From: Pagrus major
Taxonomy: Eukaryota > Chordata > Actinopteri > Spariformes > Sparidae
Assembly (NCBI RefSeq): GCF_040436345.1
Contig: NC_133216.1
Location: 1,872,033-1,936,032 of the forward strand
DNA length: 64,000 bases
Reading direction: 5' to 3'
Positions 25,547 through 64,000 of the stretch are shown in pieces. The notes beneath the pieces were generated by a model that saw only the letters and a program-made list of their open reading frames with translations, was not told where the DNA came from and made no database searches. The number at the start of each line of letters is the position of its first letter. Within the stretch, counting starts at the first letter, position 1. The translations under genes and the position numbers were made by a program.

Positions 25547-28500
25547 ATATATGTGTATATATAGCCAGAGAACGAGTGAGAGAGAGAGCAAACCTCATCG
25601 TGAAGTTCATCCTCATTATCACGTCAGTGTCATCGTCTTTAAACAAGCTCTCTGTGTTTCCACTGTTGTTTCCACCAGAGGAAATGACCAAACATGTCTC
25701 AAGCAAATTATATTTTAAACAAGATGGATGCTGATTAACTCTGAGTTACTGGAAAATGATTGTGGGCTTTGACATATTGAAAACAAAAGTGGACGAGAGC
25801 GGAGACAACACAGCAGAGCACAGAGAGGAAAGGACAGCATCTTAATCAGTGAAGCCGAATATTACAAATGGATTATTTTTACATTCACCATTTTCAAAAC
25901 ACAAGATGAGTGTTTATATTGTCTGTCATCCAGGCAGCCTTTGGGTTCAGTTTATCTCTATAAAAACTAATGTACATGCTGCAGATAGACGATCTCTATC
26001 GTTGTGTTCGAGGACACTTGACCATCGTAGAGTTGATCTGAAACAGACGGCTGCCTGGAAGAAGTAAAATCAGCTTACTTGCAGATGGCAAACAGTAATG
26101 AATCGTGCATCTGTGTGGTTTATGTGCTCCTTTCTCCAGAGTAAAGATGCTGGCATCAGAGCTTTGGTCATGCTGGATGAGCAAGGAGGTAAACAGCTCT
26201 AGTTGATCTTTCCTTAAATACAACTTTTTTAGCCTTTTTCAATTACTTTAGAATAGAAAAGTCTGTTTCCAAGGAGGAAGGTAGGGAGCTTCAGGATATC
26301 TGCCCGTGGAGATCTCTATTATTTTATTCTCTGTGAGTCGTTCTGCAGGACAAAGAACAAACATGCGGGTCACACAGGCCCAGTTAAACACAAAGACAAG
26401 ATACAGGACAAGCTGCTTTCAGAGCTGTCCGGTTTACACATGTAGTGGTTTAACATGGCTGTTCCTGTTCTGCAGTGTTACACTTCAAGGAAGAAAATGT
26501 GTCTGCTTAAAGGTGTCATTTGTAAAATATGACCAGAATTCGAGGGTAGCTCCAAAAACATAGGGAGCAGCATATCACCTGAGTAACTGACAACTGCTGC
26601 TCTTTGCTAGTTATGCTTAGCTGTAACTAGCCACCGTTAGCAAATTGGCTCATGGCTCAGTTAGCCGTGGATTGGCCCAGGAGTTGGCGCGGACCGAACG
26701 CGGCCTGAGAGAAATGATGCACAGGAGTGGTACATTTTCAGATTCATTACCGGCAGCTGGTAAAGTTAGCTTCTCAATGCTTTTCCCGTCAGTCCACTGA
26801 AAGATGTATAAGCTTCAGTTAATCCACACTGAGAGGTAGCTGTCTCAACACAATGTCCACAATGTGTTTGAGACCTAAATGAGCTTTGATTTATGGGGAT
26901 TGTCAGCACTGTCTGAACACGTTGGTCTGAACACGCACTCGACCAATCAGATCAGTGGGTTTGTTGCACGCTGTCCGTCTCTGCTGTTTGTTACAACACC
27001 ATAAAACCCAGCACCATAAAACTCCTGTTCCTAACAGAGCAGTTGGAGCGTATTGAGGAAGGCATGGACTCCATCAACAGGGACATGAGGGAGGCAGAGA
27101 AGAACCTGACAGACATGGCTCAGTGCTGTGGTCTGTGTATCTGGCCAATCAGGAAGTAGGTCTGGTTTCCATCCAGGATCCGTGCCTTCACACGACCTCA
27201 GAAACCCAGTTCCATTAAATAAATATGGTGTTTATTGGGGTTTGGGTCCACAATAAGACCGCTATTTAGGGCATTTACACCACCCGTCCATGCATCTGTT
27301 CATCATTGTCCAATAAGACGGATGGTTTGTGACGCTTCAGTGTCTCCAACTGCTGTTCATTTGATCAGCAAATTAGATAAGTTACGTGCCAAAGTGTTGT
27401 TTGCAAACACGTTGTGCTCTCAGTCATTTCTGCACGACTTTACTACACTTTCCTTTATTCCACAACGGCCCCTCGAGCAGGTGTTTGGACGTAGTTACAC
27501 AAAATCTAAGAACAGCGATAGACGTTGCCCAGTAATTAAAATAAAACTCTGGATAAATATAAATAAAATAAAGATGTGAGAGTGACTTGATACTTGAGTA
27601 CATTTATTGCCAGAAAATTATGTTTGATACTTACAGTAGGCAACTTTTAATTTCAGATACTTTCAGACTTTTACAAGAGTTTTTCACAGACTTTCACTTT
27701 TTAACAAAATAATATTTTATCTTTACTTTTCCTCGAGTATGACTTTCAGGTACTTTTTACAACACTGAGGCTTAAAAGCAACTTAAATTTAACATAACAA
27801 AACATAATGGAACTGGGCACTGAGGCCAGAGTTGCAGGGAGCTGGCACAGCTCGGCATGGCACGGCCCTGTTAGCACAGCTATAGTTAGTGCTGAGTGAT
27901 GTTATTTATGATTTGAGAGTGAGTTTTTTATTTCAGTTGCTGGTGGCTGGTTTTTCAGTTCAGCTGTGAGGCTTTTAGGAATAATTTGGTGATTTTTTTT
28001 CCTGTGTTTGGATTTTGTTTCGCTCTCCTCCTCTGCTCCCCTCCAACATCCTCTCCCTTCATTCTGTCCATGCTCGCTCTTCTTCTCTTCACCGCCCTCC
28101 ATCCATCATCGTCCTACCTCTGTCATCCATACTGCCACATCATCTCCCCCTTATACTTCACCCCCTCTGTCATCCTTCTCCTTCCTGTCTTCCCACCTTC
28201 TTCTCCATGTCCTCCTTTCTTCTTCCTCTCCTCCTGCCTGCACCTCCGTCCTCCCCCCGTCCTCCTTCTCCTCTCATAGAGCAGTTGGAGCGAATAGAGG
28301 AGGGTTTGGATCAGATCAACTCTGATATGAAGGAGGCCGAGAAAAACCTGACCGACCTGGGCAAGTGCTGTGGCCTCTGCTCCTGTGATAAGTAGGTGGA
28401 GGGGTGTGTGTGTGTGTGCGTGTGTGTGTGTGTGTGCATGACTGGTACATTATTCTGAGGTAAGTATGTGATGATCAGTTATATATATATGTATATATAT

Positions 28501-42300: not shown

Positions 42301-43591
42301 TTCTGAAAATGTGTTCTTGAATTCATAGGTGGAAAAAAAATTAGGAACTTAGATTGTGCTGTATCATAGGGAGCTGGACTTGTTTGAGTTTCTTGAAGAC
42401 GTTTCTTCAGGTCTAACTAACTGGAGGGGACCTGCAGGCTTTTAAACTCTGTGTGGGAGTGTCCTTACAGAGTCGTTGGTCAAACCGGCCTTCGTGTGGG
42501 TTTCTAAAGCTAGCTGAAACCCACATGAAGGCCGGTTTGAGTCCAGTTAGCTACGATACAGCACCTAGACTTAACCTGGATTACTGAGAACCTTCATCAA
42601 CATGTTAGATTATGCTCGCAAAACCTTTTTCCCACCAGTGTTCAAGGCTTAAACAGTTTAGATCCGATTTAGAAATCGGATCGCCAAAAATAAAAACATG
42701 TCTTGGTCCATGTTCCTGTGATGATGACTGCTCACCGGACACTGTTCTCTCTCTCATCCACCAGATCGTACGATGGATTTTGATGAAAATGACGACCCCA
42801 TGTTCTCCTACTCTTCTAATCTCGCCCCGCCCGCCGCCTCCCTGGACCCCCTGCCTGACGACGTCACGCCGAGGGTTAAGCCGGTCCACACCTACTCCCG
42901 AAACAACAACAACAACCAGAACCACACCGCGCCCTCCAGACCTCCACCTGGACCCTCTTCCTCTGTGGCCTCCACCTCCTCTGTGTTCCCCTCTGATGCC
43001 GACACCGCCTCGGCTGCTGCGCCTCCCCCGTCACACTCCCCCTCAAGCTCCACCCTCACTGCCTCCTCTGTCCCTGCGTCCTCCTCCTCTTCTTCCTCCT
43101 CACTTCCTACCCCACCTGCCTCTAAATCTGATGCAGCCAATGACTCTCGCCCTGCGCCCTCCACTTCCTCGCTCCCACCACCACCTCCTGCTCCTCCCGT
43201 GTCATCCTCTGCTGCTCCCACCTCCAACTCTCATCAACCTCCACCCTCCAGCTCAGGCTCAAACCCATGTGACCCTCTCCCAGCCGGGGCGTCCTCTCGC
43301 AGGGCCCAGGACCACGTGGCCCAGATGGCCTCTCAGAGCCTCCAGCAGCAGCGGGCCAGCAGGATGCTCCTGACCTCGGTGTCTCAGTCTCTGGAGATGT
43401 TGGCTCAGTCGGTCCAGCTGCTGGTGGAGAGCCAGCAGGAGTTTGTGCAGGAGTCTCTGCTGCTGCAGAGGGAGACGGTGGACATCCTGAGGGACTTCTC
43501 CAACACCGCGCTCACTATGCTGAGAGACAAAGCCAACGCTGGACAGCTGGCGACACATCATCATCATCATCACCCGGCGTCACGCTTCTGA
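36371..43591 (+). CDS. Myb/SANT-like DNA-binding protein with Pro/Ser-rich centre
   Basis: Six coding exons: 36371-36512, 37726-37820, 38354-38510, 39161-39328, 41315-41368, 42765-43591. They give 480 residues. Residues about 23-105 form a Myb/SANT-like (Myb_DNA-bind_5 type) domain: KPRFSFTEVKMLLEAVKRNR, NQGVSAETKKQTWAEITNQI and REVRQIMKKWADLKCDGKRR, as in NAIF1, MYPOP and related transposase-derived regulators. An acidic region (FGEEEDFSKLY, DFDLDLAEDG) follows, then Asn, Ser, Pro and Ala runs encoded by the large last exon, then a Gln/Leu-rich predicted helix (AQSVQLLVESQQEFVQESLL) and a six-His run just before the stop. A nuclear DNA-binding regulator is likely. The exact orthologue is not recognised. 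Confidence 0.88.
39593..40343. mobile_element. Large fold-back element, copy 1
   Basis: Left arm ('ggtgatccattttctacatc', 'gaactggtggaaaac', 'tccatctgcgaaaa') is the reverse complement of the right arm ('tttttccaccagttcccaaa', 'gaaaatggatcactagaaaa'). The centre is dense in A and T runs. No coding capacity. Lies in the intron after exon 4 of the Myb/SANT gene. Confidence 0.75.
40344..41314 (+). other. Intron remainder of the Myb/SANT gene: nothing seen
   Basis: AT-rich intron sequence between the fold-back element and coding exon 5. No exon, RNA or repeat structure was recognised. Confidence 0.5.
41985..42697. mobile_element. Large fold-back element, copy 2, with a nested insertion
   Basis: The arm at 42000 ('tttggtgatccattttctaa', 'gagaactggtagaaaa') pairs with 42615-42697 ('ctcgcaaaacctttttccca', 'gatttagaaatcggatcgcc'). 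It is the same family as 39593-40343. A second element (42357-42563) lies inside it. The right end stops 67 bases before the acceptor of the last coding exon. Confidence 0.7.
42357..42563. mobile_element. Nested MITE with an internal hairpin
   Basis: Ends TGCTGTATCATAG...CTGGACT and AGTCCAGTTAGCTACGATAC are inverted repeats. Inside, 42480-42504 and 42516-42540 form a 25 bp stem with one G-U type difference and an 11 base loop. Confidence 0.7.
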
Positions 43592-47558: not shown

Positions 47559-50500
47559 ATGGATCTCACGGTGCTGGTTGTGTTTCTGTCACTCTGGAGC
47601 TCAGGTAGGACTCTGGTTCTGGTTTTACTTCGTTAGAGGCAGAGACATAACATGAAATGGGCCCAAGTGTGTTCAAGAAATACACTACAGAAAATATACA
47701 GTGTGTGTGTGTCTGTCATTGATTATGTGTGTGAGCTCACTTCATTTCATAGGAAAATATCCAAACTCCTGCTTGTACTGAAAACTCTCCTGAGCGTCAG
47801 CAGAAGTTGTTGCTGCTGCCGTCCAGTTAGCTGTCAGACTGTTAGCAGACTATAGAGCTGGAAATGTTATACTGCGTTTGTCGTTCCTGCTGTCAGGCTG
47901 CAGAGTTACCGACTGTGGGCCGTAAGAAAGCTACATAGATGCGCAACAAGTCACAAAAAGGTTTTACCGTAATTTTTGGTAACTCTTAAGTACTCTAACA
48001 CGTTACTTTTCCCAGTAGATAATGCAGTAACGTAACAAGTTACTTTTTAATGGCAGTAATCTTGTAGCATCATGAGTAACATTACCCAACACTGGTGTCA
48101 TTCAACCGGTACAGGAAAACATTTCGGCATCCATTTTAGGTCAGTGGGTCGCTTTACTTGGAGGCTATTGACAATAAAAAATGATTTTTAATTAAAAATA
48201 TTAATTTAAAAATATATTAAAAATATTGAAAAAACACTAAAATCCAATAAAAAGGAGGCGCGTCTCATTCAACCAGTACAGGAAGACAATTTTGGCTTTG
48301 ATTTTGAGCCAATGGGTCAAATGACCTGGAAACTATTGAATAAATGACAATTTTGTATTAAAATATTATTAATTTATTATTTTTATTTTCATTAAAAATA
48401 TTGATGACATTTTTTTTTCAACCTCTTGTATCTTTAAAACAGGGATGTTGAAGCAGCAGGAGGGTGATGCCAGACTTAAAACTTTTGTTATATCCAGTTA
48501 AATTATTCTTATATTATTATATTTAATTGATTTTCACGTAGATTTCTCTCTTCAGGACTTCGGGGCTGAAGACACGAACAGTTCAACGAGTCATTAAAAA
48601 CAGAATTATAAGTGAAGAAACTGACTTCCTGTGACGATGATGTTTGTGTCTGTGCTCAGTGGTGGCTGAGGATGTCAGGTTGGTGGGAGGAGCCGGCCGC
48701 TGTGCTGGGAACCTGGAGGAGAACCAGCAGGGAGTCTGGAAACCAGTGGCGGACGAGCACTATGAGTGGAACCTGACGTCAGCAGCTGCGGTGTGCAGAC
48801 AGCTCGACTGTGGTTCTGTGGTGTCGTTACGAAGAACCCAGCGTTCCTCTAATATACTGACTTTCTCAGAGTTTAGAGAGATTTTTCGATACAGCTCAGA
48901 TAGATCGGCCTCTTCCTCTCTGGAGATCAACTGTTCAGGTCAGTGTCATTAACTTTTTAAGATTTCTACAACACTTCAGTTTCCCTCTTTGTCGACCGCA
49001 GTGGAGGAGGAAGGATCTGTCTTTGTACTCGGGAAGCACTGAACTCAAAACAGACGTGAGTTCGAGTATCAGGATGTTGTTTATTTAAGCCTGAAATCGA
49101 TGCGTTGATCAGAAGTTGCTTAATTTATTATTTTGTTGAAGCCTCAGAATTTAGCTTCAGATCAATGTTTTGGATCACAAGAGTAAAATAACTATTTACA
49201 GAACACCTTTTTTAAAATAAATTTGAATGTATAAACTTCCGTCAGCTACTAGACGAGGATTTTTTTTCAGATATTGACACATTTTATTTGGATGATACTC
49301 GGATTCGTTCTAAAAATGACATTATCTGTACCAGACTGAAACATTTTAAAGTTTTCTGAAATGACGGAAAAACAATATTAACTGAGAGAAAGAGGTGTGA
49401 CATGTAAGAAACGTACCGGGTCAAACCAGCAACGCTGCAGTTATGTTTCTGTCTGAACCTTTGGGCTATCGGGACGCCTGCAGATGGTCCATTTCTGGGT
49501 CTGATAACAATCCTGATATTAGGGAGCAAAAAATTCCAGTATCAATAAATCGGCCAATATACAGTAGAACCATTTTTGCAATGATCCCTCAAACTTTCAC
49601 TATGATACTCTTGCGATATCGGCCAACCGATGAAGCTAAACTATAATCTTTATGAGAAATATGGTAAATTATGGCCCGTATAACTAGAGACATGGCATCA
49701 GAAGGAGCTGCGTACAGCTGTGTTTCTCTGCGTTTTAGGTCGGTATTGTCTCAGGTTTGCACACGTTTGTTGTGTTACAGTATGTGTCAGATTTCAGACT
49801 TGAATTGAAGGCATAAATCATTCACTCTGTCTCTTCAGACTCTGTCAGGCTGGTGAACGGGACCAACCTGTGTTCAGGCAGACTGGAGGTGAAGTCTAAC
49901 CAGAGGTGGTCCTCAGTGTGTGAAGATGACTTTGACCAGCAGGATGCAGAGGTGGTCTGTAGGGAGCTCGGCTGTGGGGCTCCTTCAGTCCTCCAGGGGG
50001 CGCTCTATGGAGAAGTGGAGGCTCCAACGTGGACCAAAGAGTTCCAGTGTGGAGGCCGTGAGTCTGCTCTCCTGGACTGTAGAAGCTCAGGCTCAGACAG
50101 AAACACCTGCTCACCTGGAAAAGCTGTTGGACTCACCTGCTCAGGTAGGAGAAAATATTCCCATCAGTTTGCATTATTATTTTTTAAGCTAACTGTCCCT
50201 AGTTGTGAATGTGAGTGTGGTTGTCTGTCTCTATAGCCACGTTTCCACCACAGGATCGTTTCCCAGAGAGGGAACAGGGCACACTACGTTCACAGTGCTT
50301 TGTCGTACGTCAGCAGGCAAACTGGCCCAATGCTCTTCTGTCTTCAGACTGCAGTGGAAACACAGAAAAAAATGGGCAAAGGGATCATTTCAGTTCCTTG
50401 AAAAGAAAGCCCTGAGGCTAAAAGTTCCTGGTAGTTTTTGTGGAAACGCGGCTAAAGAAGCAGCCTTTTGATTGTCTGGCAACCTGTCCAGGTGAACCCC

Positions 50501-53500
50501 GCCTACAGTCCTGCCAGTGACTGACATCGTCATAGTGTTCATTTGTTTCTTCTTGTTTCTACCCAGCACCCGGTGATGTCAGGCTGGTTGGAGGAGCCTC
50601 CCAGTGTGGTGGCACACTGGAGATTAACCAACTTGACGAATGGAAACCAGTGAACGACGTGAACTGGAACCTGAGGTTAGCAGGCGTAGTGTGTGGACAG
50701 CTGGACTGTGGCTCTGCTGTTTCAATCAGAAGAAGACAGACGCCCTCCAGCAGATTTATTTGGGAACTCAAGACCTACTGTGAAGGATCTTCACTGATGA
50801 AATGTTTAAGACTTACATCTTCATCTGCTGTCCTCGAAATAACCTGCTCAGGTAACAACATTAATATTTACTAGTAATCTTTACTCACACATCTGTTAGC
50901 TGACTAACTTTGACAAAAAAAAAGTTATCCAGGACAATGACAGCATAAAAGTCAGAGTAGGTGGCTCGTATAAAGACATCAGCGCCACCTTTAACCGCCG
51001 AAGAAGTAAATCAAAATCAGTACTGAAACATGGCGACACATTGCTTCCTTTTTTTTTTTATATAAGCAGGCAGGTCTAGTCTATGGACTTGGTCTAGTTT
51101 CAGAAACGGTGCCTTCAAAACGAGCCACTGGGACTTCCGAAAAGTTGTGATAATACACCCCAAACACAGCCATGGCTGCAAAAACACTGCTCAGGCCTGT
51201 GAGAGTTGACCAATCAGAGCAGACTGGGCTTTTTCAGACAAAACAGAGTGTTCAGATAGAGGGTGAGACTACAGGTGCTGCAACACTGGACAGCCAAAGA
51301 AAATTAAAGTGTTTTTTGAACATTAAAGTATATAAACAGTATAAAAGTATGAACCCAGAAATGAGCATTATATTGGATCTTAAAGCTTTTCTTATGGTGC
51401 TGTTTCTTTTCCCAGACTCTGTCAGGCTGGTGAACAGGACCAACCTGTGTTCAGGCAGACTGGAGGTGAAGTCTAACCAGAGGTGGTCCTCAGTGTGTGA
51501 AGATGACTTTGACCAGCAGGATGCAGAAGTGGTTTGTAGGGGGCTCGGCTGTGGGGCTCCTTCAGTCTTCAATAATCCCTGTGATGGCCACGAGTCTGCT
51601 CTCCTGGACTGTAGAAGCTCAGTTGAAAACACCTGCTCACCTGGCAAAGCTGTCAGACTCACCTGCTCAGGTAGGAGAGGAGCCACGACTTTGATTTGAT
51701 TCTCTTTGATTTCAAGTCACTTCCGTTCGTTCCCTAATCATTCACTTGTCTTTGTTCAGACCCTGTTGATGTGAGGTTGGTGGGAGGAACCAGCCGTTGC
51801 ACTGGTAGACTAGAGGTGAAACACCATGAGATCTGGAAAGCTGTGGATATTCAAGACTTTGACTGGGACCTGAAAGCATCATCTGTAATATGTCGAAGGC
51901 TGGACTGTGGCTCCTCTGTTTCTACGGGAAAGAAAATGGGCTCCCCTGAAGAATCTGTGTGGTGGATCAACTCTTCCTGCGTTCGATCCAATTCTACACT
52001 GAAGGAGTGTATGACAACAAAAGATGTGCCCAGCACTTACAGTCTGGAAGTCACCTGTTCAGGTAACACCATTAAAGATGCTGTACGTGATATATTTTTA
52101 TTTAAATAAGTGTTAAATAGCTCTATATTGTTGAGTGTTTGGTTACCAACCCCTGAATGAAACAGACAGCTCAAACGGCATCAACGCTTACAGCTGCTTT
52201 AATGAAACTTGTCCTCGCCTACCACGTCTTCGCGTCCCTAGAGTTTGATATGGTCAGCTCAGTTTCTTGGTAACTTTTGGTGTTTGAAAGGCGGAAGTTG
52301 GAAATCTCAACCAGGAAATTCTGACATCCGACGTTTACTGGAACGCGGCAATAGTCCTGGTCAGAGCTGCTGTAAATCACCTCCATACTGTATCTCCCCC
52401 ATCGCCAAACTGATCCCCTCAGTCTTAGAGGCTGTGTCCAGTCCCAGTCCGGTGACTGGGAGGCGGCTGAGGCCCATTGCCTGTGGTGACTTCCCCAATG
52501 ATCTGAGGTTGTGGTCCAGGCAGACTTCAGGGAGCTAATAGGCAACGGATAAGTCCCTTCGTGGGGAGGTTACAATCATGAATATTTCCATTGCTCGTCG
52601 GAACAAGTGCAAGTAAGAAAGTATCCTAATAACTGACGCACAGGCAGCACTTTCAAAGCATTTTAAGTTTTAGCTGTATTGACTCAATAAAGTGCCAACC
52701 TAGATCTTACTGTACCACAACAGTCGCTCTATAAAATAAATTTGGATGATAGTTCAACAAAAATACCAAATCTTCTCACTGATGGTGAAGATTGCTTACG
52801 TAGGTCATATAGAGACATCTTAAGACTGTTTCATAGCCAGTTAAAAGGGTCCTTGTGGGAGTATTTCTATGCTGTAGTATTGCTTCCTGTACTTAAGTGA
52901 AAGATCTGAGTACTTCTTCCACCACTGTCGTATCCACAGACTCCATCAGGCTGATGAATGGTGCTAGTCGGTGTTCAGGTGGACTGGAGGTGAAGTCTAA
53001 CCAGAGGTGGTCCTCAGTGTGTAAAGATGACTTTGACCAGCAGGATGCAGAGGTGGTCTGTAGGGAGCTCGGCTGTGGGGCTCCTTCAGTCCTCCAGGGG
53101 GCGCTCTATGGAGACGTGGAGGCCCCGATATGGACCAAACAGTTCCAGTGTGGAGGCAATGAGTCTACTCTCCAGGACTGTAGAAGCTCAGGCTCAGATA
53201 GAAACACCTGCTCATCTGGTGAAGCTGTTGCACTCACCTGCTCAGGTAGGAGAGATGCAGCTTTGATGTGGCTCACTAGCTTTATTCCTCTACTAATTAC
53301 TTTCCTGTCTCTGCTCAGATTCAGATAACATCAGGTTGGTGGGAAAGAACAGTCGCTGCGCTGGTATACTGGAGATGAAGAACCAGGGAGAGTGGAGACC
53401 AGTGGCTGACTGGGATTCTCAATGGGACGAGAAGTCTGCATCCGCCGTTTGTCGACGGCTGGATTGTGGTTCTGTTATTTCAACAGAGGTGACAGATGAT

Positions 53501-55341
53501 GCTCCAGATCGACTGGTGTGGTGGATCACGTCGCCCTGTGTCCAGTCAGCATCTGCTCTGATGGAGTGTTTAAAAGTGACTGATGATACTGAAAGCTATT
53601 TCAGCCTTGAGGTGGTGTGCTCAGGTACGACTGAACAGTCACATCTGAAGTTTTCTTCATGTCTCTTTGTGATTGCTCATAATCTCGTCACTGATGATCA
53701 CAAAACAGGAGGGATGAGATAAAGTAACCTGATGCGCCAGATGGTTTGGAAAAGGTCCGACAATTTAAAAAAACAAACAAAAAACGTCAGATCAAAGAAC
53801 CATATGACTGGCAGAAGTCCGGTACCACCAGCAGAGCCCGATGGTATATAAAAAACTAAAAAAAAAAAACACCCTCGCAATGTAGGAGAACTTAAGGAGG
53901 TCTATTCTGGATCAAGACCCATCCTCCATTCGAGTTTTGTGAAAATCTGTTGATTAGTATTTTGTGTAATCCTGCTGACGAACCAGCCGACGGAAAGGGC
54001 AAAAACATGTCTCTTTCTATAACGAATTTCTGATTCATAGAGGTTTTATATTTGTAAAACTTTCCTTCGCGCCCAGAAAAGCGATTTAAAAATCTGTGAC
54101 GTCATCACAATGTAAAGTCATGCAGAACATGTGGGGCCCGCTGGAGAAACCCGACTGCACATATTCAGTGTTGAACTTGCCCTTTATCCCTCTGTTGACA
54201 TGTCTGCTCTCTTTCTGTTAACAGATTTGCTCGTTCAGCCAAAGATCTCGCCCTCTCCCTCCACTGATGGGGTCTCCAAGGCACGGCAGCAGGGGCTTCA
54301 GGTGCTCCTGGGCTCCAACTTCCCCATCACATGCTCCATCGAACCACAGTACCAAGGAGGCTCCTTCCAGCTCATCTTCACCTCCTCCAACACAGTGCAG
54401 AACTACACCCAGCCAGCTGTCAATCACTCCGCCCACTTCCTGTTCTCTGCCGCAGACCACACCCACCAAGGGGACTACAGCTGCGTTTATCACGTCCATG
54501 TTTTCTCCCATAACTTCTCCTCCGAGAGCCGGCATCTCTATCTCACCGTTGCAGGTATCGCAAGATAATCAGGGGAACGTGAAGCTGACTATCTTAACAT
54601 GCAGACACAACATTTCTGGAGCTTCACGGTAAAACAGAGCTGCAGCATTCTGCTCAACAACTGAAGTAGCTGGGGACTTGTTTTAAAACGTAAAAAAACC
54701 CAACTGAATTGGCAGCATTCAGCTCGTCTGGCATAATCCAAGTCTCCAGAAGCCCTGAGATCCCAAATTGATCTGAAAAGACGGTTTTTACAACCTTTTT
54801 TAAGCTGAAATCTTCACTGCACAAACTCAACAGCACATCGAGGGTGTTAATAACGTGTTTTCAAATGACTTTGGGGTCTCAGGGCTTCTGGAGACTTGGA
54901 CTCACCAGACAAGCTGAATTTTGTTTATTTTATGTTTTGAAACAGGTCCAGAGAATGCTGCAAAGCTATTTTGCTGTGAAGCTCCAGAAATGTTTTGTGG
55001 ACTATGGATCTTCACTCAGTATTAGATAATGACTGAATTTTCATTTTTGGGTGAACTCTTCCTTTAAGGCACCTTAGCTTTTAATTATAATGATGTGATA
55101 TTATAAGATGTGATGGTTTAAATCTGTTTCAGCCCCTCTAACAGAGCTCCTCATCAGACTTGTTGTCCTCCTGCTGGGTATGATGTCACTAATCACTGCC
55201 CTCTGCTGCCACTCGAAGGTACAGTTACACTGAGTGTTCAGCACGATGTATTTAGTTAGCAGACAGCAGTTATTTTTACACTAACAAGACATGTTTTCTA
55301 TCATGTATGTGCAGGCCTGTAGAGTCCAGAAGCCGGGATGA
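47559..55341 (+). CDS. SRCR-Ig membrane receptor (seven SRCR domains, one Ig, TM)
   Basis: Eleven exons: 47559-47604 (signal peptide MDLTVLVVFLSLWSS), SRCR exons 48660-48938 (A1), 49839-50144 (B1), 50567-50851 (A2), 51416-51670 (B2), 51760-52062 (A3), 52940-53245 (B3), 53319-53624 (A4), Ig 54225-54554, TM 55133-55218, tail 55315-55341. 842 residues. All ectodomain exons are phase 1. B domains carry eight cysteines (RWSSVCEDDFDQQDAEVVC, RELGCGAPSVLQG). A domains begin VRLVGG and have CRQLDCGS. The Ig domain pairs FPITCSIE with GDYSCVYH. The TM is LVVLLLGMMSLITALCC with a 10-residue tail lacking signalling motifs. SRCR proteins of this type (CD163, WC1, DMBT1) bind microbial or host ligands on leukocytes or mucosa. 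Function here is inferred only from family. Confidence 0.9.
51416..51670 (+). CDS. SRCR exon B2 with a shortened middle loop
   Basis: 255 instead of the usual 306 bases, still phase 1 at both ends. The stretch LQGALYGEVEAPTWTKEFQC of other B domains is replaced by FNNPC, deleting 17 residues overall, yet eight cysteines remain. Confidence 0.9.
53895..53995. repeat. Fragment of a dispersed fish repeat
   Basis: 'ggtctattctggatcaagac', 'ccatcctccattcgagtttt' and 'gtgtaatcctgctgac' recur at 61190-61290. Confidence 0.7.
54596..55067. mobile_element. Palindromic MITE between the Ig and TM exons
   Basis: 'acatttctggagcttcac', 'aagtctccagaagccctgag' (left half) are mirrored by 'ttggggtctcagggcttctg', 'gaagctccagaaatgttttg' (right half). 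The right end has 'tttttgggtgaactcttcct'. Same family as 46473-47195. Confidence 0.75.
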
Positions 55342-57602
55342 GAGAAGAACACTGAGATTAATGATTATGTTCCTGGTGGCTGGAGATGCTGGAGCTCAGA
55401 GGAAAGATGATTGTATCTGCTGAACAAACAGTGAACACAGTGGATGACTCAAGACAGCCGGTTCCTCCAAAACCCCCTGGAAATCTTGTTCATACTGACT
55501 TTCGGTGGTTTAGTTTGGTTACAGGTGCGACAAAGCACAATAAAACTTGATGAAATATAAGTTATCTAATAATGTATGAGCACTTAAAACAGTTTCTATT
55601 CGTTTTATTTGTATTAATTTGCTCTTGTTGTCTTTTTCATTGCTCTTTTGTTCTCATGACATTTAGCAATTTGCATTTTCCATCTTCTTGTCTTTTTCTC
55701 ACCGATACACGAATCCGGACCTGCTTCAGTTATATTAACTTCCCGATTCTCTCATTTTTCCTTCATCTGTTAAAACACTTTGTATGCTCTATTTTTAAAA
55801 TGTGCTATACAAACAAAGAAGCTTATTTTGAGTGTAATAAACTTTTATACAAAAGCTATTACTCTGTTATTGATTGACTGATCAGTATGATGTTATCCTT
55901 GTTGCAGCCTGTCTGCAGCGGAGGAAATCTTCGTGTTTACAGAACCGTTCTTTGGTTCTTACTGGACTCATGCAGTCCAACAGCAGAGAAGTGTTTTTAC
56001 TGTTCGGCGTGGTCGACTCTGGAAGCTAAATCCATGAACTATGCACAAAAACACGGCTGTCAGTTCTCCTTTTTTATTACATCAACCTGCTGAGTGCTGC
56101 CAGAATTTTATTGAGCTCAGCTGCTGAAATATTTAACTTAACAGCACCATCTGCTGGCTACAGAGACATGTTAGCTGTGAATACACTAATGTATAATAAC
56201 TGAATAACTTTCTGATTTGTTGATATTATGGAGGTGTAACAGTTGTTTTTAGAGTTTATAACTTCACTTGTACATGAGGATTGTTTTGGAAATTGTGCGT
56301 AAACCTATGTTTTAGAGAAGATGAAGAGTTTGTACTTGCAGACGGACGGAAGTGAAGATGCTGGAGTAGCAGTTTGACCTCATTTATAAAACTCAGAATA
56401 CCTCAGAATCTAAGCAAGAACATGTTCAGGTCAATAAAATCATGTGGCACGAACCTGTACACAGTCCTCTCATTACAAATACTCTCCTGGGGTGTATTGT
56501 GCATGCGTGTCCTCCTCCCAGTGTCACCTATGCTGAGATTTTAAAGAGTCTCGGTTTGATTATCAATGAGGGAAAGATAAGAAAGGAAAAGGCAAAATTG
56601 TGGACTGCGAGGTCAAAGTGCAACTATTCCAGACCAAATAGTCGCAGTAGACAGAAAGTCCAGAGTGGTCATTATCTGGACCTGTTCTGCCAGGAGGTTC
56701 ATTCCTAAACTGGGCCCAATCCCGCACAGATTTACAAGAGAAACATCATCACAGGAACAGGAAGTCCTGTTTGCCCCCGGACATGTGCTCAGGGTCTCAA
56801 ATCTTCAAGTCATGCCAAAGCAGCCAAAAGCTGGGCAGGCGGGAAGAGGTGCTGCTCAGCTGCTCAGATCTGGTTAGAGAGTCTGGATCAGAGCCAGACC
56901 CTCTGGAGAATAAACACCTGGAGTCACTCTGATCTGATCCAGAGCGTGTGCCAAGGGGAGGAGAGCTCAGAGATTACTCTTTTAACTTTTGGGATTAAAA
57001 AGTGGATTTATCCTCACTCCTGTTTATCAGCCTGACTGCAGCAGCGATCCATGGAGCTGACCTCCGTTTTCAGGTGTTTATGATTTGTAATGTTGACTGG
57101 AGCTCGGAGGGGGAATGCGTTTAAGTTTAAGTGTTAAATAATGTACCTGGGCGACCTGTGACACCTTGTAAGTAAAGTGTAGGATTTTAAAATGTAATCT
57201 AAAAGAAACTAGTAGCAAACACTTAAAACGAAGTAAATGGGGGTAAATTGGGCGACGTAAAAATTAATCAGGCAATCAGTAGATCTGCACTGGCCTCATG
57301 CCGATAGGTTTACAGCAAAGATGCATTTACGCAGCAAGAGAAAATGTCCGGTCACAGATGTGAAACAGCTTCACACGTTTACTGGAACATATTCTAGTTC
57401 CAGTAAATGATACTGTGGTACCTGAAGTTTAAGAGCACAGGATGTCAGCTTACGATTATCTCAGGCAGCTTCCTGTTTGCCCGTCATAGAGATTAAAAGT
57501 TAAAGAGGAAACTGCACATTTGATGAGAGCTGATAAAGACATATACGATCAACAGACAGTAAGTGAGAGTGACAGACTGTTTGGACAACACGCCAGCTGG
57601 AC
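55342..57602. other. Spacer between the two SRCR genes: no gene seen
   Basis: It begins with the 3' UTR of the upstream gene, with AATAAA at 55539-55544. Several small ORFs (55572, 56442, 56665) lack domain or splice support. Confidence 0.55.
55539..55544 (+). terminator. Poly(A) signal, SRCR-Ig gene
   Basis: AATAAA about 200 bases after the TGA stop. Confidence 0.6.
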
Positions 57603-60600
57603 ATGGATCCCGTAGACCGACTGCTGGTGTTCACGTTGCTCTGGAGCTCAGGTACGACCTCGGCCACTTAAACCTCACTGACTGCTTCCTACATATCATG
57701 ATTTGGATTGTGTGATCCACCGGAGAATAAGCGAAATTCATTCAAGCCAATATTTTAAACTTTCGGAAAATATAATAAACTTGTGAAAGTGGGTATAAAA
57801 TGATGAAGAAATCTCATCTAGACTAGTCAGGCTGCTGACAACTGACTGCTATAAATCACAAATATTAGGATATAATATTTTTAAGGATGTTATTAGTAGT
57901 TTTATGGGGAGGTGCATCCCCCTCTGTTTTACTTTTACATTTTTTTTGTTTAATTGCTGTTAAATGTTCTTTTTAATGTGTTGATTTATGACCCTGACGG
58001 CCTAAACACGGAGACTTCCTGAGTATATATTTCTAAATTGTGTAACAAATGTTTTTTATTTTATTTTAGTGATTTCATCACATTGACAGAGTTACAGTTG
58101 ATTAAAGATGACTTTCAGCCACAACATTATTTATGAAATCTTGGTTATAATGGGGATATTGCCTTTGAAATTTGGATATACTCAGCATGGATGAAAATCT
58201 TACTTTTTGTTAAATTGCAATAGTAATAGAAGTAGGTTCATTTTCAATGGATTCATATTCTGTAGCTTCTTACCTTTCAAATGAGACCAAAATATGCATA
58301 AAAGCCTTATTCCTGATTCATTTTGGGTATTTTTATTCTAGGAATTTTTTTTCTGAGGCTAGGAAGAGGTTCAAGCCTTCTGACACCACATAAATGTCAC
58401 ATCCTTGGTATCAACATGTTGCATCTCTACATCTTTCCAGGAAGCGGTTTTTGTTTTTGCATTTATGATGATGAAAAAAGCGATTCGGGGGCATTTTGTC
58501 ACTTATTGCATGATATATACAAGCCAGTTGCCAGAATAAATGTTAGCCAAGTAAACTTCTGCAAAACCACAGATTAGTTAAAACTACACGTTTATTTAAG
58601 TTGCAACTTAAAGTGTAACTCTCGCCAAAATGCAACCTAGGCTTTTTTTGTGAATGTACCCGAGTCAAACCTTCGTGTAAAAGCCACTTTTAAGATTTAC
58701 CGTGTTTTCGTTTTCAGGTCAAAATTGGAGATGGTCCGACTTCCTGTGAAAAATATCTGGTTTTGTTCCCACAAAAATGGCTGGCAATATCCCCAGGTCT
58801 CTTTAAAAATACCCAGTGGTGTTGGATTGTAATAACGCCAACACCATTACCCTACACACCTGTGGATGTGAAAGGTGGCTAATAAGCTTGTAATGTGAAT
58901 GCAATATGCCACTTTTGTTACACATGTCAACCTTGGATGTTATCTGTGGCTTGCAGCAACGTTAATACATTTTATATGCAACCATCATCAAACATAAACA
59001 TTAGAGGCTCATTTTAGTTTCCCAGAGTCCTACGTTTCCTCATTGTGCAGTCAACCCATGGCGCTAAGAAAGACCTCAGAAAATCGGACCCTATCCCTTA
59101 ACAGAGTAATGTTAGGAGGTAATCCCTTCCTCGAGTTCCTGCAGTTGAAGAGATTGAAGACAATATCCACAGTCCTGTCATGCAACCGCCACACCTGATC
59201 TTATTAGTACCTTTATTTGAAATGATTGTTTCTGTTTTTAGGATTCTCCCCAGGTCTCCTGACAGAGGAAACTGATACTTCTGAAGGTAAACTGATACAT
59301 TAAATAGAGTCCTAATGGAAGAATAACGCAAGAGATTATTACACTAACAACTCTTACCTGTGCTCAGAGGTTGATGATATCCAGTTGGTTGGAGGATCCA
59401 GCCGCTGTTCTGGTGAACTACAGGTGAAGAGCTGGGGAGATTGGAGAGAAGTGAATGGCCGTGACTGGGACCTGAAGTTAGCAGATGCAGTTTGTAGACA
59501 TCTGGACTGTGGTTCTGTGGTTCAGGTTCTCTCAGGAAATCACACACTGTCATCTTCATGGGTAATGACGCCTTTCTGTCTGAATTCTGGAACTGGACTG
59601 AGGAAATGTTTAATAAAAAGGTCCATAACTCCTGGTAACAGTCTGTGGATCACCTGTTCAGGTAATGCCATCAGAAGCCATAACACAAAAACACTAATCA
59701 CAAACAAGCTCAGTCTAAGAGGACTACATTTTCAGTCTTTATCTAACCATCCCCATGATGATGGAAAGTCAGGTGAAGTTTCCTGGTCCACAAAACATTA
59801 CACAGCAAAACAGTGCAGCAGCATTCTCCTCAACAACTGAAGTAGCTGGAGACTTGTTTTAAAAACACAACTTCTTATTCGTTCTCTCTCTTCCCCCGAT
59901 AGACTCTGTCAGGCTGGTGAACGGGAACAGTCTGTGTTCAGGCAGACTGGAGGTGAAGTCTAACCAGAGGTGGTCCTCAGTGTGTGAAGATGACTTTGAC
60001 CAGCAGGATGCAGAGGTGGTCTGTAGGGAGCTCGGCTGTGGGGCTCCTTCAGTCCTCCAGGGGGCGCTCTATGGAGACGTGGAGGCTCCAACGTGGACCA
60101 AAGAGTTCGAGTGTGGAGGCCGTGAGCCTGCTCTCCTGGACTGTAGGAGCTCAGACTCAGACAGAAACACCTGCTCATCTGGAAAAGCTGTCGGACTCAC
60201 CTGCTCAGGTAGGAGAGGAGCTTCAGCTTGAATTTGATTTAAGTTTCTATTAAATGTGACTTCTTTTTTTTTTTTCATCTTTTACTCTTGTCTGCTCAGA
60301 GCCTGATATTGTCCGGTTGGTGGGAGGATCCAGTCGCTGTGCTGGTGAACTGGAGGTGAAACAACGAGGCGTGTGGAGAAAAGTGGATGAAGAAATGGGT
60401 CAGTGGAATCTAAAGACAGCAGATGCAGTGTGCAGACAACTGGACTGTGGCTCTGCTGTTTCAACAGGGGGGATACAGAGTTTAACACCCGTACCTGTCT
60501 GATGGATTAGATCAACTTGTCTTCAGTCCAGGTCTGCAGTTAGAGAGTGTATATCTACAAGAATTCATTCTACTGAATACCACCTGGAGGTCAAGTGTTC

Positions 60601-63600
60601 AGGTAACACCAGCAAACACATCAGCTATGATGGTTGTCTTGTTGTTTACATTTCCATTTCTTCATTCAGTAGATCCAGCCACAGTAGATCATGGAGAAGT
60701 CATCAAGGATACGTGCTCAGTTTTATATTCCACCTGACAGACTGTTGCAGGTATATGAGGGAAGACATAAGTACATAGTAAACTAGAATGGCAACTCAGA
60801 GTGCATACCTCCGCCAAAAAATACACCAAAAAATTCTTGTGCCTGAGATTGCTACAAAAATTTACAGCACAATAGAAAAAACAGTAACAAAGGGCAGGTC
60901 TCGTTTAGGCCGTGTTTGTTGAGCCCTCTCATCACTTAATCGGCCGCGTTCACTGGGAGCTCCCGGTCCAGCAGAGTTGGCTACATTGACATGTCGCTGC
61001 ATGGCAGGGGGCGCAATTCACATTCAGTGCTAACGCTATTAGCTACAATAAAGGGCAATCAATATCCTCGACAACTCCCTCCCTACCTGACCGTTTTTAG
61101 AGGAAACATGTAAGTATGAGGAAGGAAATAACACTCATAGGGACTTAAAAATCCTTTGATCCGTCCTTTAATCCGTATCACAACCTAATGGGGTCTATTC
61201 TGGGCCAAGAACCATCCTCCATTCAAGTTTTGAGAAATCTGTTGAGCAGTTTTTGTGTAATCCTGCTGACAAACCAATCGACCAACAAATGGGCACAGGT
61301 GAAAACCTAACCTCCTTGGCACAGGTAATAAAAAGGCAGTATTGAATTAGATACGTTATTCAGCCATCAAGGGAGAAAAACGCAGAAAAGTTTGGACTAC
61401 GATTTCCAGCCTTGCTGTGCCAGTGGGACGAGCTGTTTTTCACCTGCTGATTGTAGAGAAAGACAGCTCATGAACCTGAATGCAGGAGTTAAAATCTTTC
61501 TGTCTGTTGCCGTCTTTCTCCAGACTCTGTCAGGCTGGTGAATGGGAGCAGTCTGTGTTCAGGCAGACTGGAGGTGAAGTCTAACCAGAGGTGGTCCTCA
61601 GTGTGTGAAGATGACTTTGACCAGCAGGATGCAGAGGTGGTCTGTAGGGAGCTCGGCTGTGGGGCTCCTTCAGTCCTCCAGGGGGCGCTCTATGGAGACG
61701 TGGAGGCTCCAACGTGGACCAAAGAGTTCCAGTGTGGAGGCCGTGAGTCTGCTCTCCTGGACTGTAGAAGCTCAGACTCCGATAGAAACACCTGCTCATC
61801 TGGAAAAGCTGTTGGACTCACCTGCTCAGGTAGAAGAGGAGCTTCAGCTTGAATTTGATTTAAGTTTCTATTAAATGTGACTTCTTTTTTTTTCATCTTT
61901 TACTCTTGTCTGCTCAGAGCCTGATATTGTCCGGTTGGTGGGAGGATCCAGTCGCTGTGCTGGTGAACTGGAGGTGAAACGACGAGGCGTGTGGAGAAAA
62001 GTGGATGAAGAAATGGGTCAGTGGAATCTAAAGACAGCAGATGCAGTGTGCAGACAACTGGACTGTGGCTCTGCTGTTTCAACAGGGTGGATACAGAGTT
62101 TAACACCCGTACCTGTCTGGTGGATTAGATCAACTTGTCTTCAGTCCGGGTCTGCAGTTGGTGATTGTGTATATACAACGACTTCTTCCGCCAATTTCAA
62201 CCTGGAGGTCAAGTGTTCAGGTAACACCAGCAAACACATCAGCTATGATTGTTGTCTTGTTGTTTACATTTCCATTTCTTCATTTAGCAGATCCAAGCCA
62301 CAGTAGATCAAGGCAAGGCAAGGCAAGTTTATTTGTATAGCACAATTCAGACACAAGGCAACTCAAAGTGCTTCACAGGGGAATAAAATTACATTAAAAG
62401 AAATTAAAAATTGCATTTAAAATACATTAAAACAAAACATTAAAACAAATTAAGAACTAGGAAAGTAGGCTAAAATAGAATAGGTTTAAAAGAGACAAGA
62501 ATAGAAAATAAAAGTCAGAGTGCAGTTCAAAGCCTTAAAATTGCTTCAGTGACAGTCTGTGGCAAACAGAAAGGTCTTCAGCGTTGATTTAAAAGAGGTG
62601 AGAGTTGGAGCAGACCTGCAGTTTTCTGGGAGTTTGTTCCAGATATGTGGTTCATAATAACTGAACGCTGCTTCTCCATGTTTAGTTTTGACTCTAGGGA
62701 CTGAAAGCAGTTCAAGGAGAAGTCATCAAGGATACGTGCTCAGTTTTATATTCCAGCTCACATAAGTGTCAGGTTGTTGCAGGTATATGCAGGAAGGCAT
62801 ACATGCATAGGGAAGGAAACGGCAGTATTGAATTATAGGAGTTATTCAGCCATCAAGGGAGAAAACAGCAGAAAGGTTTCATACAATCACCTGCTGATTG
62901 TAGAGAACGAGAAGGTTCCTGAACCTGAATAACGGAGTAGAAATCTTTCTGTCTGTTGCCGTCTTTCTCCAGACTCTGTCAGGCTGGTGAACGGGAGCAG
63001 TCTGTGTTCAGGCAGACTGGAGGTGAAGTCTAACCAGAGGTGGTCCTCAGTGTGTGAAGATGACTTTGACCAGCAGGATGCAGAGGTGGTCTGTAGGGAG
63101 CTCGGCTGTGGGGCTCCTTCAGTCCTCCAGGGGGCGCTCTATGGAGACGTGGAGGCTCCAACGTGGACCAAAGAGTTCCAGTGTGGAGGCCGTGAGTCTG
63201 CTCTCCTGGACTGTGGAAGCTCAGGCTCAGACAGAAACACCTGCTCACCTGGAAAAGCTGTTGGACTCACCTGCTCAGGTAGGAGTGGAGCTTCAGCTTT
63301 GATTCTAAAACAAGTTACGTCATTTATTTGATCAATTACTCTCATGTAACTGTGCAGAGCCCAATGACATCCGGTTGGATGGAGGATCCAGCTCCTGTGT
63401 GGGCACACTTGTGATGAAACATAAGGGAAACTGGAAACCAGTGGCTCCCTTCTTCATTTCTACGTGGGATCTGATGTCTGCAGCTGTTGTATGTAGACAG
63501 CTGGACTGCGGCTCTGCTCTTTCAATAGAAACAACACAGGTGGACAACCAAGATGCATGGATAATTGCAACTTCCTGTGGTCAGTCTGAGTCTGCAATCA

Positions 63601-64000
63601 GGGAATGTTCATCAATATGGATTTTTTCTTTCCCAAATACTCTGCAAATCACCTGCTCAGGTAACAAACAAACAAAGGCAACAACTTCAACAGTAATCCT
63701 TAAAAAAAAGCAGTAGTCACCCGGGGAACATATTTTGGCACCTTATATCTATGTCCGTCACCATATATTAAGTTACATTAAACACTGTTAGAATGAACAA
63801 CAGTGTTTTAAATTAGTTCCTTTTTTTAAACTGATGCAATAAGAACCGAAACTGGACTCACCAAAATAACAAAATCACTGTCATCTTGTTCACTTGCATT
63901 GTCCACTCGCCATCTTTTTGGTTAGTTTTAAAACTTAAAAAAAACATCTTATTCGTTCTCTCTCTTCCCCTGATAGACTCTGTCAGGCTGGTGAATGGGA
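57603..64000 (+). CDS. Second SRCR-domain gene, 3' end beyond the window
   Basis: Exons: 57603-57651 (signal peptide MDPVDRLLVFTLLWSS), 59242-59286 (15-residue acidic linker), SRCR exons 59368-59661 (A), 59903-60208 (B), 60300-60602 (A, with TGA), 61524-61829 (B), 61918-62220 (A), 62973-63278 (B), 63358-63660 (A) and the start of another B at 63977. All are phase 1. The first exon and the sequence before it resemble those of the upstream SRCR-Ig gene ('ctggacatggatc', 'ctctggagctcaggta'), so the two are tandem duplicates. B domains are nearly identical to each other and to B1 of the neighbour. A domains have six cysteines, lacking C2 and C7. Ig, TM or further domains are not visible. If the A exon at 60300 is always included the protein would truncate early. 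Confidence 0.88.
57652..59241 (+). other. First intron of the second SRCR gene: nothing seen
   Basis: AT-rich, 1.6 kb. ORFs at 58323 and 58650 have no recognisable domain. Confidence 0.5.
60300..60602 (+). pseudogene. SRCR A exon with in-frame TGA
   Basis: Near-identical to the A exon at 61918-62220. At 60500-60502 the codon is TGA where the sister exon has TGG (VPVWWIRS). Splice sites are intact (tctgctcag / gtaaca) and both ends are phase 1, so skipping the exon would keep the frame. Confidence 0.85.
60779..61334. mobile_element. Repeat insertion in the first B-A unit
   Basis: The sequence from 'aactagaatggcaactcaga' to 'cctaacctccttggcacagg' has no counterpart in the sister unit, where 'catacatgcatag' continues straight to 'ggcagtattgaatta'. 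It starts with 'gcatacctccgccaaaa' and ends 'aacctccttggc', the ends of a common fish repeat. Confidence 0.75.
62308..62717. mobile_element. Repeat insertion in the second B-A unit, with target duplication
   Basis: Begins 'aaggcaaggcaaggcaagtt' 'tatttgtatagcacaattc', a very common fish repeat. Both ends carry TCAAGG (62308-62313 and 62712-62717), and the sister unit lacks it ('gtagatcatggagaagtc'), which defines the insertion to a few bases. Confidence 0.8.

Follow-up and report, generated by a model that had tools for sequence, protein, structure and literature searches.

Group B scavenger receptor cysteine-rich (SRCR) domains that lack the second and seventh cysteines of the numbered set C1 to C8 have been published for bovine CD163A SRCR8 and for CD163c-alpha SRCR5, the latter being domain 'n' in the order m-l-b-c-n-d-e-d' (Herzig et al. 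2010, PMC2906472; here and below, statements with a citation refer to the sections of the source drawn on). Such a domain occurs once per array there, without alternation. WC1, SCART and CD163 are multigene systems with SRCR arrays of repeated cassettes; their tails are described with tyrosine-based motifs, and in WC1 domain a gives most of the diversity (PMC2906472). A different combination is found in FCRLS, a protein in which FcR-like immunoglobulin (Ig) domains stand together with a type B SRCR domain (PMC7940838, PMC4016189) and which is described as soluble, with no transmembrane (TM) segment and one SRCR exon (PMC7940838). Here we describe two tandem SRCR genes of the fish Pagrus major, which lie in a stretch of 64,000 nucleotides (contig NC_133216.1, positions 1,872,033 to 1,936,032; hereafter the window). 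Their SRCR exons are of two types, A and B; like CD163A SRCR8 and CD163c-alpha SRCR5, the A type is a group-B-type domain without C2 and C7, but here it recurs at every second position of the array. As in WC1, SCART and CD163, the genes belong to a multigene system with arrays of repeated cassettes, whereas their Ig domain, TM arginine and short tails without a visible tyrosine motif set them apart. Unlike FCRLS, they have an SRCR array first, then one Ig domain and then a TM segment.

We consider it fairly probable that the two genes represent a multi-locus family of fish receptors with the order signal peptide, A-(B-A)n, FcR/KIR-like Ig domain, TM segment with an arginine, and short tail. 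The order of the exons, the cysteines of each domain type, the grouping of A and B into clades, the small divergence of B exons at silent sites and the presence of Ig and TM exons are read from the sequence; the steps that would join them into a mechanism are conditional and are set out below. The cysteine pattern alone carries little weight, as it is already known from published CD163-family domains; the main interest lies in the gene family and in the contrast between the evolution of its A and B exons.

The two genes extend on the + strand from position 47559 to the right edge of the window and contain 14 complete SRCR exons (eight A and six B), plus the start of a fifteenth (B) at 63977. 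All 14 complete domains are single exons with an AG acceptor and a GT donor, of phase 1-1 and with a length divisible by three. The starts given for the A exons in the preliminary description are thus true exon starts, and its statement that each A domain sits in one exon holds for all eight. Gene 1 runs from its signal peptide through A1-B1-A2-B2-A3-B3-A4 to Ig, TM and tail exons, and gene 2 from its signal peptide through a small predicted exon and A5-B5-A6-B6-A7-B7-A8 to a B exon cut by the window edge. Beyond that edge, on the same contig, gene 2 continues with the rest of this B exon, then A, Ig, TM and tail exons, so that seven SRCR exons precede the single Ig exon in gene 1 and nine in gene 2. 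The features of the window are as follows.

47559..47604, + strand: gene 1 signal-peptide exon (MDLTVLVVFLSLWSS); open reading frame (ORF) with donor GT, signal peptide by inspection
48660..48938, + strand: A1 SRCR exon, without C2, C7, C5 and C6; alignment, Pfam SRCR 1.5e-9
49839..50144, + strand: B1 SRCR exon, eight cysteines; alignment, Pfam SRCR 3.5e-24
50567..50851, + strand: A2 SRCR exon, without C2 and C7; alignment
51416..51670, + strand: B2 SRCR exon, eight cysteines, shorter before C5 than other B exons; alignment
51760..52062, + strand: A3 SRCR exon, without C2 and C7; alignment, Pfam SRCR 2.3e-15
52940..53245, + strand: B3 SRCR exon, eight cysteines; alignment
53319..53624, + strand: A4 SRCR exon, without C2 and C7; alignment
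54225..54554, + strand: gene 1 Ig exon; Pfam ig 2e-6, weak PDB matches, nine more genome matches
55133..55218, + strand: gene 1 TM exon APLTELLIRLVVLLLGMMSLITALCCHSK, arginine within the helix; hydrophobicity scan
55315..55341, + strand: gene 1 tail exon, reading ACRVQKPG before its stop
57603..57651, + strand: gene 2 signal-peptide exon (MDPVDRLLVFTLLWSS); signal peptide by inspection
59242..59286, + strand: gene 2 small exon (GFSPGLLTEETDTSE), phase 1-1; predicted only
59368..59661, + strand: A5 SRCR exon, without C2 and C7; alignment, Pfam SRCR 5.8e-13
59903..60208, + strand: B5 SRCR exon, eight cysteines; alignment
60300..60602, + strand: A6 SRCR exon, without C2 and C7, in-frame TGA stop; alignment
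61524..61829, + strand: B6 SRCR exon, eight cysteines; alignment
61918..62220, + strand: A7 SRCR exon, without C2 and C7, near-copy of A6; alignment
62973..63278, + strand: B7 SRCR exon, eight cysteines; alignment
63358..63660, + strand: A8 SRCR exon, without C2 and C7; alignment
63977..64000, + strand: a further B exon, of which 24 bases precede the window edge; profile match

C1, C3, C4 and C8 align across all 14 domains of the window, and the cysteine positions are therefore clear. In each of the eight A exons, the C2 position holds A, N or D and the C7 position R, T, V, I, H, S or F, while all eight cysteines are present in the six complete B exons. The alignment thereby bears out the preliminary description on both exon types, including its view that the absent cysteines are C2 and C7 rather than C1 and C4. 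Its further claim, that exactly one bonded pair is missing, fits the seven A domains with six cysteines; it fails for A1, which has four and also lacks C5 and C6. Pfam SRCR (PF00530) scored 38.5 bits for A1, 57.1 for A3, 49.5 for A5 and 85.4 for B1 against the Pfam gathering cut-off of 26.1 (4 of the 14 complete domains were scanned).

The suggestion that this is a new SRCR subtype did not survive comparison. Human CD163 SRCR8 (PDB 9nb8) has no cysteine at C2 and none between C6 and C8, and several solved CD163 structures have it in their chains; a C2/C7-less domain therefore occurs in a folded receptor. Domain 2 of human CD5 would be another C2/C7-less case. Together with the published CD163A SRCR8 and CD163c-alpha SRCR5 (PMC2906472), the human domain means that the cysteine pattern of A was already known, and this largely refutes the proposed subtype by the preliminary description's own test.

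We searched the host genome (786 Mb in 25 contigs) for relatives, obtaining at least 65 matches with A7 as the query, at least 99 with B1 and at least 10 with the Ig exon. Scoring of the fetched stretches covered 69 SRCR rows, of which 28 were labelled A, 17 B and 24 other; six of the 65 A7 matches (contig C7 at 28.9 Mb, contigs C13 and C16) lie outside these stretches and were not read. Contigs are always named as such below or given with a coordinate (C22:22005366), to distinguish them from cysteines; contig C2 carries the window. The A type is present at seven loci at least. C2 is absent from all 28 domains labelled A, and C7 from all 27 that were read to their end; the 28th is A6, cut by its stop in the genome-wide reading and without C7 in the window alignment. 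All 17 B domains have both cysteines, and the pattern is thus no product of chance. Two of the 24 other rows are partial; 21 of the remaining 22 have both C2 and C7, and one (C22:22005366) has neither. Labels follow profile scores, to which C2 and C7 contribute slightly, and so they are not fully blind. The score gaps of the 28 A domains start at 17 bits, the four smallest all being at the contig C1 locus at 34.85 Mb. Four labels were set by locus instead. Two contig C22 domains, 22002652 and a second copy of it, 22019154, have both C2 and C7 (A/B scores 64.1/58.5 and 63.7/59.0) and group with other contig C22 domains in the tree; they were placed under 'other', and two weak contig C1 domains were put under B by locus. 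Labelling by raw score would give C2/C7 loss in 28 of 30 A domains.

Three further observations come from this search. A CD163/DMBT1-like array on contig C22 contains one domain (C22:22005366-22005659) without C2 and C7, a further separate loss. The locus C1:34851193-34854303 differs from the others in its mixed layout, with Ig matches lying among the SRCR exons. An isolated B-like fragment (77% over 44 residues) sits at C2:49797-49928, near the start of the window's contig and about 1.87 Mb away. One scan of viral contigs, the sole public collection scanned for relatives, gave no relative.

The main tree holds 71 domain rows, including five human CD163 domains and other fetched fish SRCR domains; a smaller tree took in eight human CD163 domains. 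The main tree has few columns, long branches and unsettled bootstrap values, and deep forks are weak. In it, A forms one clade (support 96/98, 27 domains) and B another (99/96, 17 domains), and both are clades of their own in the smaller tree as well. CD163 SRCR8 and C22:22005366, both without C2 and C7, fall outside the A clade. Because A is one clade with these two placed elsewhere, a single loss of the C2-C7 bond probably accounts for all A domains, with separate losses in two or more other lineages. The loss in CD163 SRCR8 would be independent as far as the tree tells, SRCR8 being a long branch of unsure placement and CD163c-alpha SRCR5 lying outside the domains sampled; a common origin of A with SRCR8 is unsupported by the trees.

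Alternation in the window is strict, as the preliminary description said: A-B-A-B-A-B-A-Ig, then A-B-A-B-A-B-A and the 24 bases of B. All arrays begin with A, and the A-(BA)n order recurs in both contig C2 genes, on contig C5, on contig C1 at 25.2 Mb and on contig C20 at 27.2 Mb. It breaks down at three sister loci, on contig C12 (A-B-A-A-Ig), contig C20 at 26.9 Mb (A-A-B-A) and contig C1 at 34.85 Mb (A-B-A-B-Ig-A-Ig-A). The proposed two-domain building block does exist as a repeat unit, but its order is better given as B-A than as A-B. Gaps between profile matches are 83-104 nt from B to A in 13 of 16 cases and 245-2285 nt from A to B, and a 796-bp block is duplicated at 95% identity between B5-A6 and B6-A7; this points to B-A as the duplicating unit.

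The exons that follow the SRCR array point to a receptor. The gene 1 Ig exon matches Pfam ig at 2e-6. A TM exon was sought in six Ig-bearing genes, out of at least ten Ig matches, with a hydrophobicity scan that made no demand for arginine. In the four genes with a TM exon, an arginine lies in the hydrophobic helix near its outer end: TELLIRLVVLLLG (contig C2 gene 1), TDQIIRVVLLVLV (contig C2 gene 2), VVYIPRFTVLLLT (contig C1 at 25.2 Mb) and VLIIRVVVILLMA (contig C5, read by eye). Their tail exons have 8, 37, 55 and 38 codons, and inspection by eye of these four revealed no immunoreceptor tyrosine-based activation or inhibition motif (ITAM or ITIM). An Ig domain, a basic TM residue and a short tail, found together in four of the six Ig-bearing genes, make up the layout of activating receptors coupled to FcR-gamma (FcR, LILRA, NKp46). 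CD163/WC1 family members are defined by tyrosine motifs in the tail and the lack of an Ig domain, whereas the fish genes have an Ig exon and no ITAM or ITIM recognisable by eye. As the arginine is found in all four genes with a TM exon, together with short tails, the sequence suggests an adaptor-coupled activating receptor, whose adaptor use would be of the FcR-gamma type. Bony fish possess FcR-gamma (PMC4016189).

The m130-like gene of Atlantic cod is a fish group B SRCR gene as well; it is nearer CD163 than other superfamily members, and most cod T cells without CD8 and MCP1b express an M130-like SRCR gene (PMC9276791). Table 1 of PMC10855680 includes Ig_3 in its list of the domains most often found alongside SRCR in zebrafish proteins, and the combination of SRCR and Ig has therefore at least been tabulated. 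Among the open-access matches listed, judged by title and the start of the abstract, we recognised no fish receptor with both SRCR and Ig domains.

Could this simply be an ordinary multi-domain SRCR gene of the CD163/WC1/SCART kind, in which the loss of C2 and C7 is random and without special meaning? In mouse, chicken and platypus, CD163-family domains indeed show scattered losses of C2/C7 and of other cysteines (PMC2906472), Pfam assigns plain SRCR, and the best PDB matches are to CD163. However, the loss is fixed in the A type here (28 of 28 domains, seven loci) and absent from all 17 B domains, and A and B form separate clades. The Ig exon and TM arginine are also part of the layout, and the sections of PMC2906472 drawn on describe no Ig domain for CD163/WC1 genes. 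We therefore regard this explanation as unlikely.

The two exon types differ markedly in divergence. In the window, protein identity is 74-97% between B domains, 36-52% between A domains (except A6-A7, 86%) and 25-35% between A and B; B exons are 84-98% identical between copies at the nucleotide level. Between contigs C2, C5, C12 and C20, mean silent divergence (dS) is 0.10-0.20 for B and 0.31-0.96 for A, and it is 0.30-0.55 for Ig (six pairs with an Ig exon). Among the 15 pairs of genes with an Ig exon, 10 were put to Fisher tests of the most divergent B pair against Ig (rounded counts, p values uncorrected), and B was less diverged than Ig for contig C2 gene 2 with contig C5 (p = 0.0005) and with contig C12 (p = 0.0008). 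B1 and B7 share a 320-bp stretch at 98% identity, which extends 7 bp beyond the exon on each side. The short B-to-A introns are 69-81% identical between window copies in nine of ten pairs, and 99% between B5-A6 and B6-A7; comparisons with the B1-A2 intron were not used, its length of 422 nt against 73-91 making aligned identity meaningless. Because B exons on four chromosomes are silently alike while the adjacent A exons have diverged, this pattern suggests gene conversion centred on the B exon.

The silent likeness of B might instead stem from nucleotide constraint (splicing enhancers, codon use) or from a recent spread of B, which we judge quite improbable. The likeness of B1 to B5, B6 and B7 stops less than 8 bp from the exon edges, which would be odd for random conversion tracts. 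However, the B exons of the two contig C1 loci are silently diverged from those of contigs C2, C5, C12 and C20 (dS 0.46-0.57 and 1.1-1.4), similar to or above Ig, and the B exon is therefore under no fixed silent constraint; recent spread would itself require exon-sized copying.

Under the favoured reading, a family of fish receptors with conversion of its B exons, A would be a group-B-type SRCR lineage that lost its C2-C7 bond once, before the array expanded, with the other bonds holding the fold, as they presumably do in CD163 SRCR8. Tandem duplication would proceed by B-A units, and gene conversion within and between chromosomes would keep B alike while A diverges, most in its C-terminal half. 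Among A domains, the proportion of protein-changing differences (pN) is 0.47 in the C-terminal half against 0.29, and A6 and A7 are separated by one change within the first 52 codons and by about 19 within the last 47. If B is homogenised while A diverges, we propose that the variable surface facing the ligand may lie on A, and that B may serve as a constant spacer or as a shared binding module. The array would bind ligand and the TM arginine would pair with an ITAM adaptor of the FcR-gamma type, together giving an activating scavenger-type receptor. The full reading, which we put forward tentatively as a possibility short of probable, is an adaptor-coupled activating family in which A domains without C2-C7 vary, B domains are held constant by gene conversion and the array of both sits on an FcR-like Ig stalk, a germline 'constant/variable' receptor with every second exon in concerted evolution across chromosomes.

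Several results weigh against this reading. C5 and/or C6 are also lost in four A domains at three loci (besides A1: C1:25208090, both; C1:25210531, C5; C5:15899898, C6), which could reflect relaxed constraint. The in-frame TGA of A6 sits where its twin A7, a 93%-identical copy, has tryptophan. Given this stop, gene 2 may be a pseudogene, the stop may be an allele, or the symmetrical A6 exon may be skipped; its length is a multiple of three, and skipping would preserve the frame. The PDB matches of the Ig exon are weak (Fc gamma RII, E 0.003; KIR, E 0.3-0.4). Structure predictions were too poor to use, with a mean predicted local distance difference test score (pLDDT) of 46.5 for A4 (made with 13 window domains) and 50.9 for the Ig exon alone. 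The scan found no TM exon at contig C12 and at contig C1 34.85 Mb, two of the six Ig-bearing genes. As for conversion, the other four Fisher pairs among contigs C2, C5 and C12 gave p values of 0.045, 0.051, 0.084 and 0.12, three of them non-significant; pairs with the contig C1 loci had no effect (0.58, 0.85, 0.39), and contig C5 with contig C1 34.85 Mb was reversed, B being more diverged than Ig (p 0.004). The A pair with the least divergence between contigs C5 and C12 (10.0/66.8 silent sites) is near B (8.0/73.0). Within gene 2 and the B-A units, likeness continues at about 70-80% into the intron and the first half of A, so any conversion tract is not sharply limited to the exon there. The proportion of silent differences (pS) in A is also higher in the C-terminal half (0.61 against 0.47), and the faster protein change there is therefore not proof of selection.

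As a separate observation, the A domain at C5:15899898 keeps C5 and has tyrosine at C6, leaving an unpaired cysteine, and C1:25210531 is the reverse case.

The window also contains frames upstream of the two genes. Two neighbouring open frames on the + strand (26917-28395) look like the two alternative versions of exon 5 in SNAP25, though these short pieces had no match in Pfam. A 287-aa open frame at 42728-43591 is rich in Pro and Ser at its start and looks helical at its end (MASQSLQQQRASRMLLTSVSQSLEML...), with no Pfam match. A Pfam scan of five upstream ORF pieces gave no match.

That the A domains belong to group A, by loss of C1-C4, is ruled out by the alignment. Group A domains are defined as lacking C1-C4, having C2-C7 and being encoded by two exons (PMC11058800), whereas the A domains keep C1 and C4, lack C2 and C7 and occupy one exon. 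As for group B, described as having 6-8 cysteines (PMC2906472), all 14 domains have C1 and C4 and a single exon; the six-cysteine A domains qualify or not depending on the definition used. Six-cysteine SRCR domains should thus not be classed as group A on count alone. If the favoured reading is true, adjacent exons of one tandem array would have opposite fates, with A diverging and B kept alike on four chromosomes, and these fish would have a receptor that links scavenger-type recognition to activating signalling.

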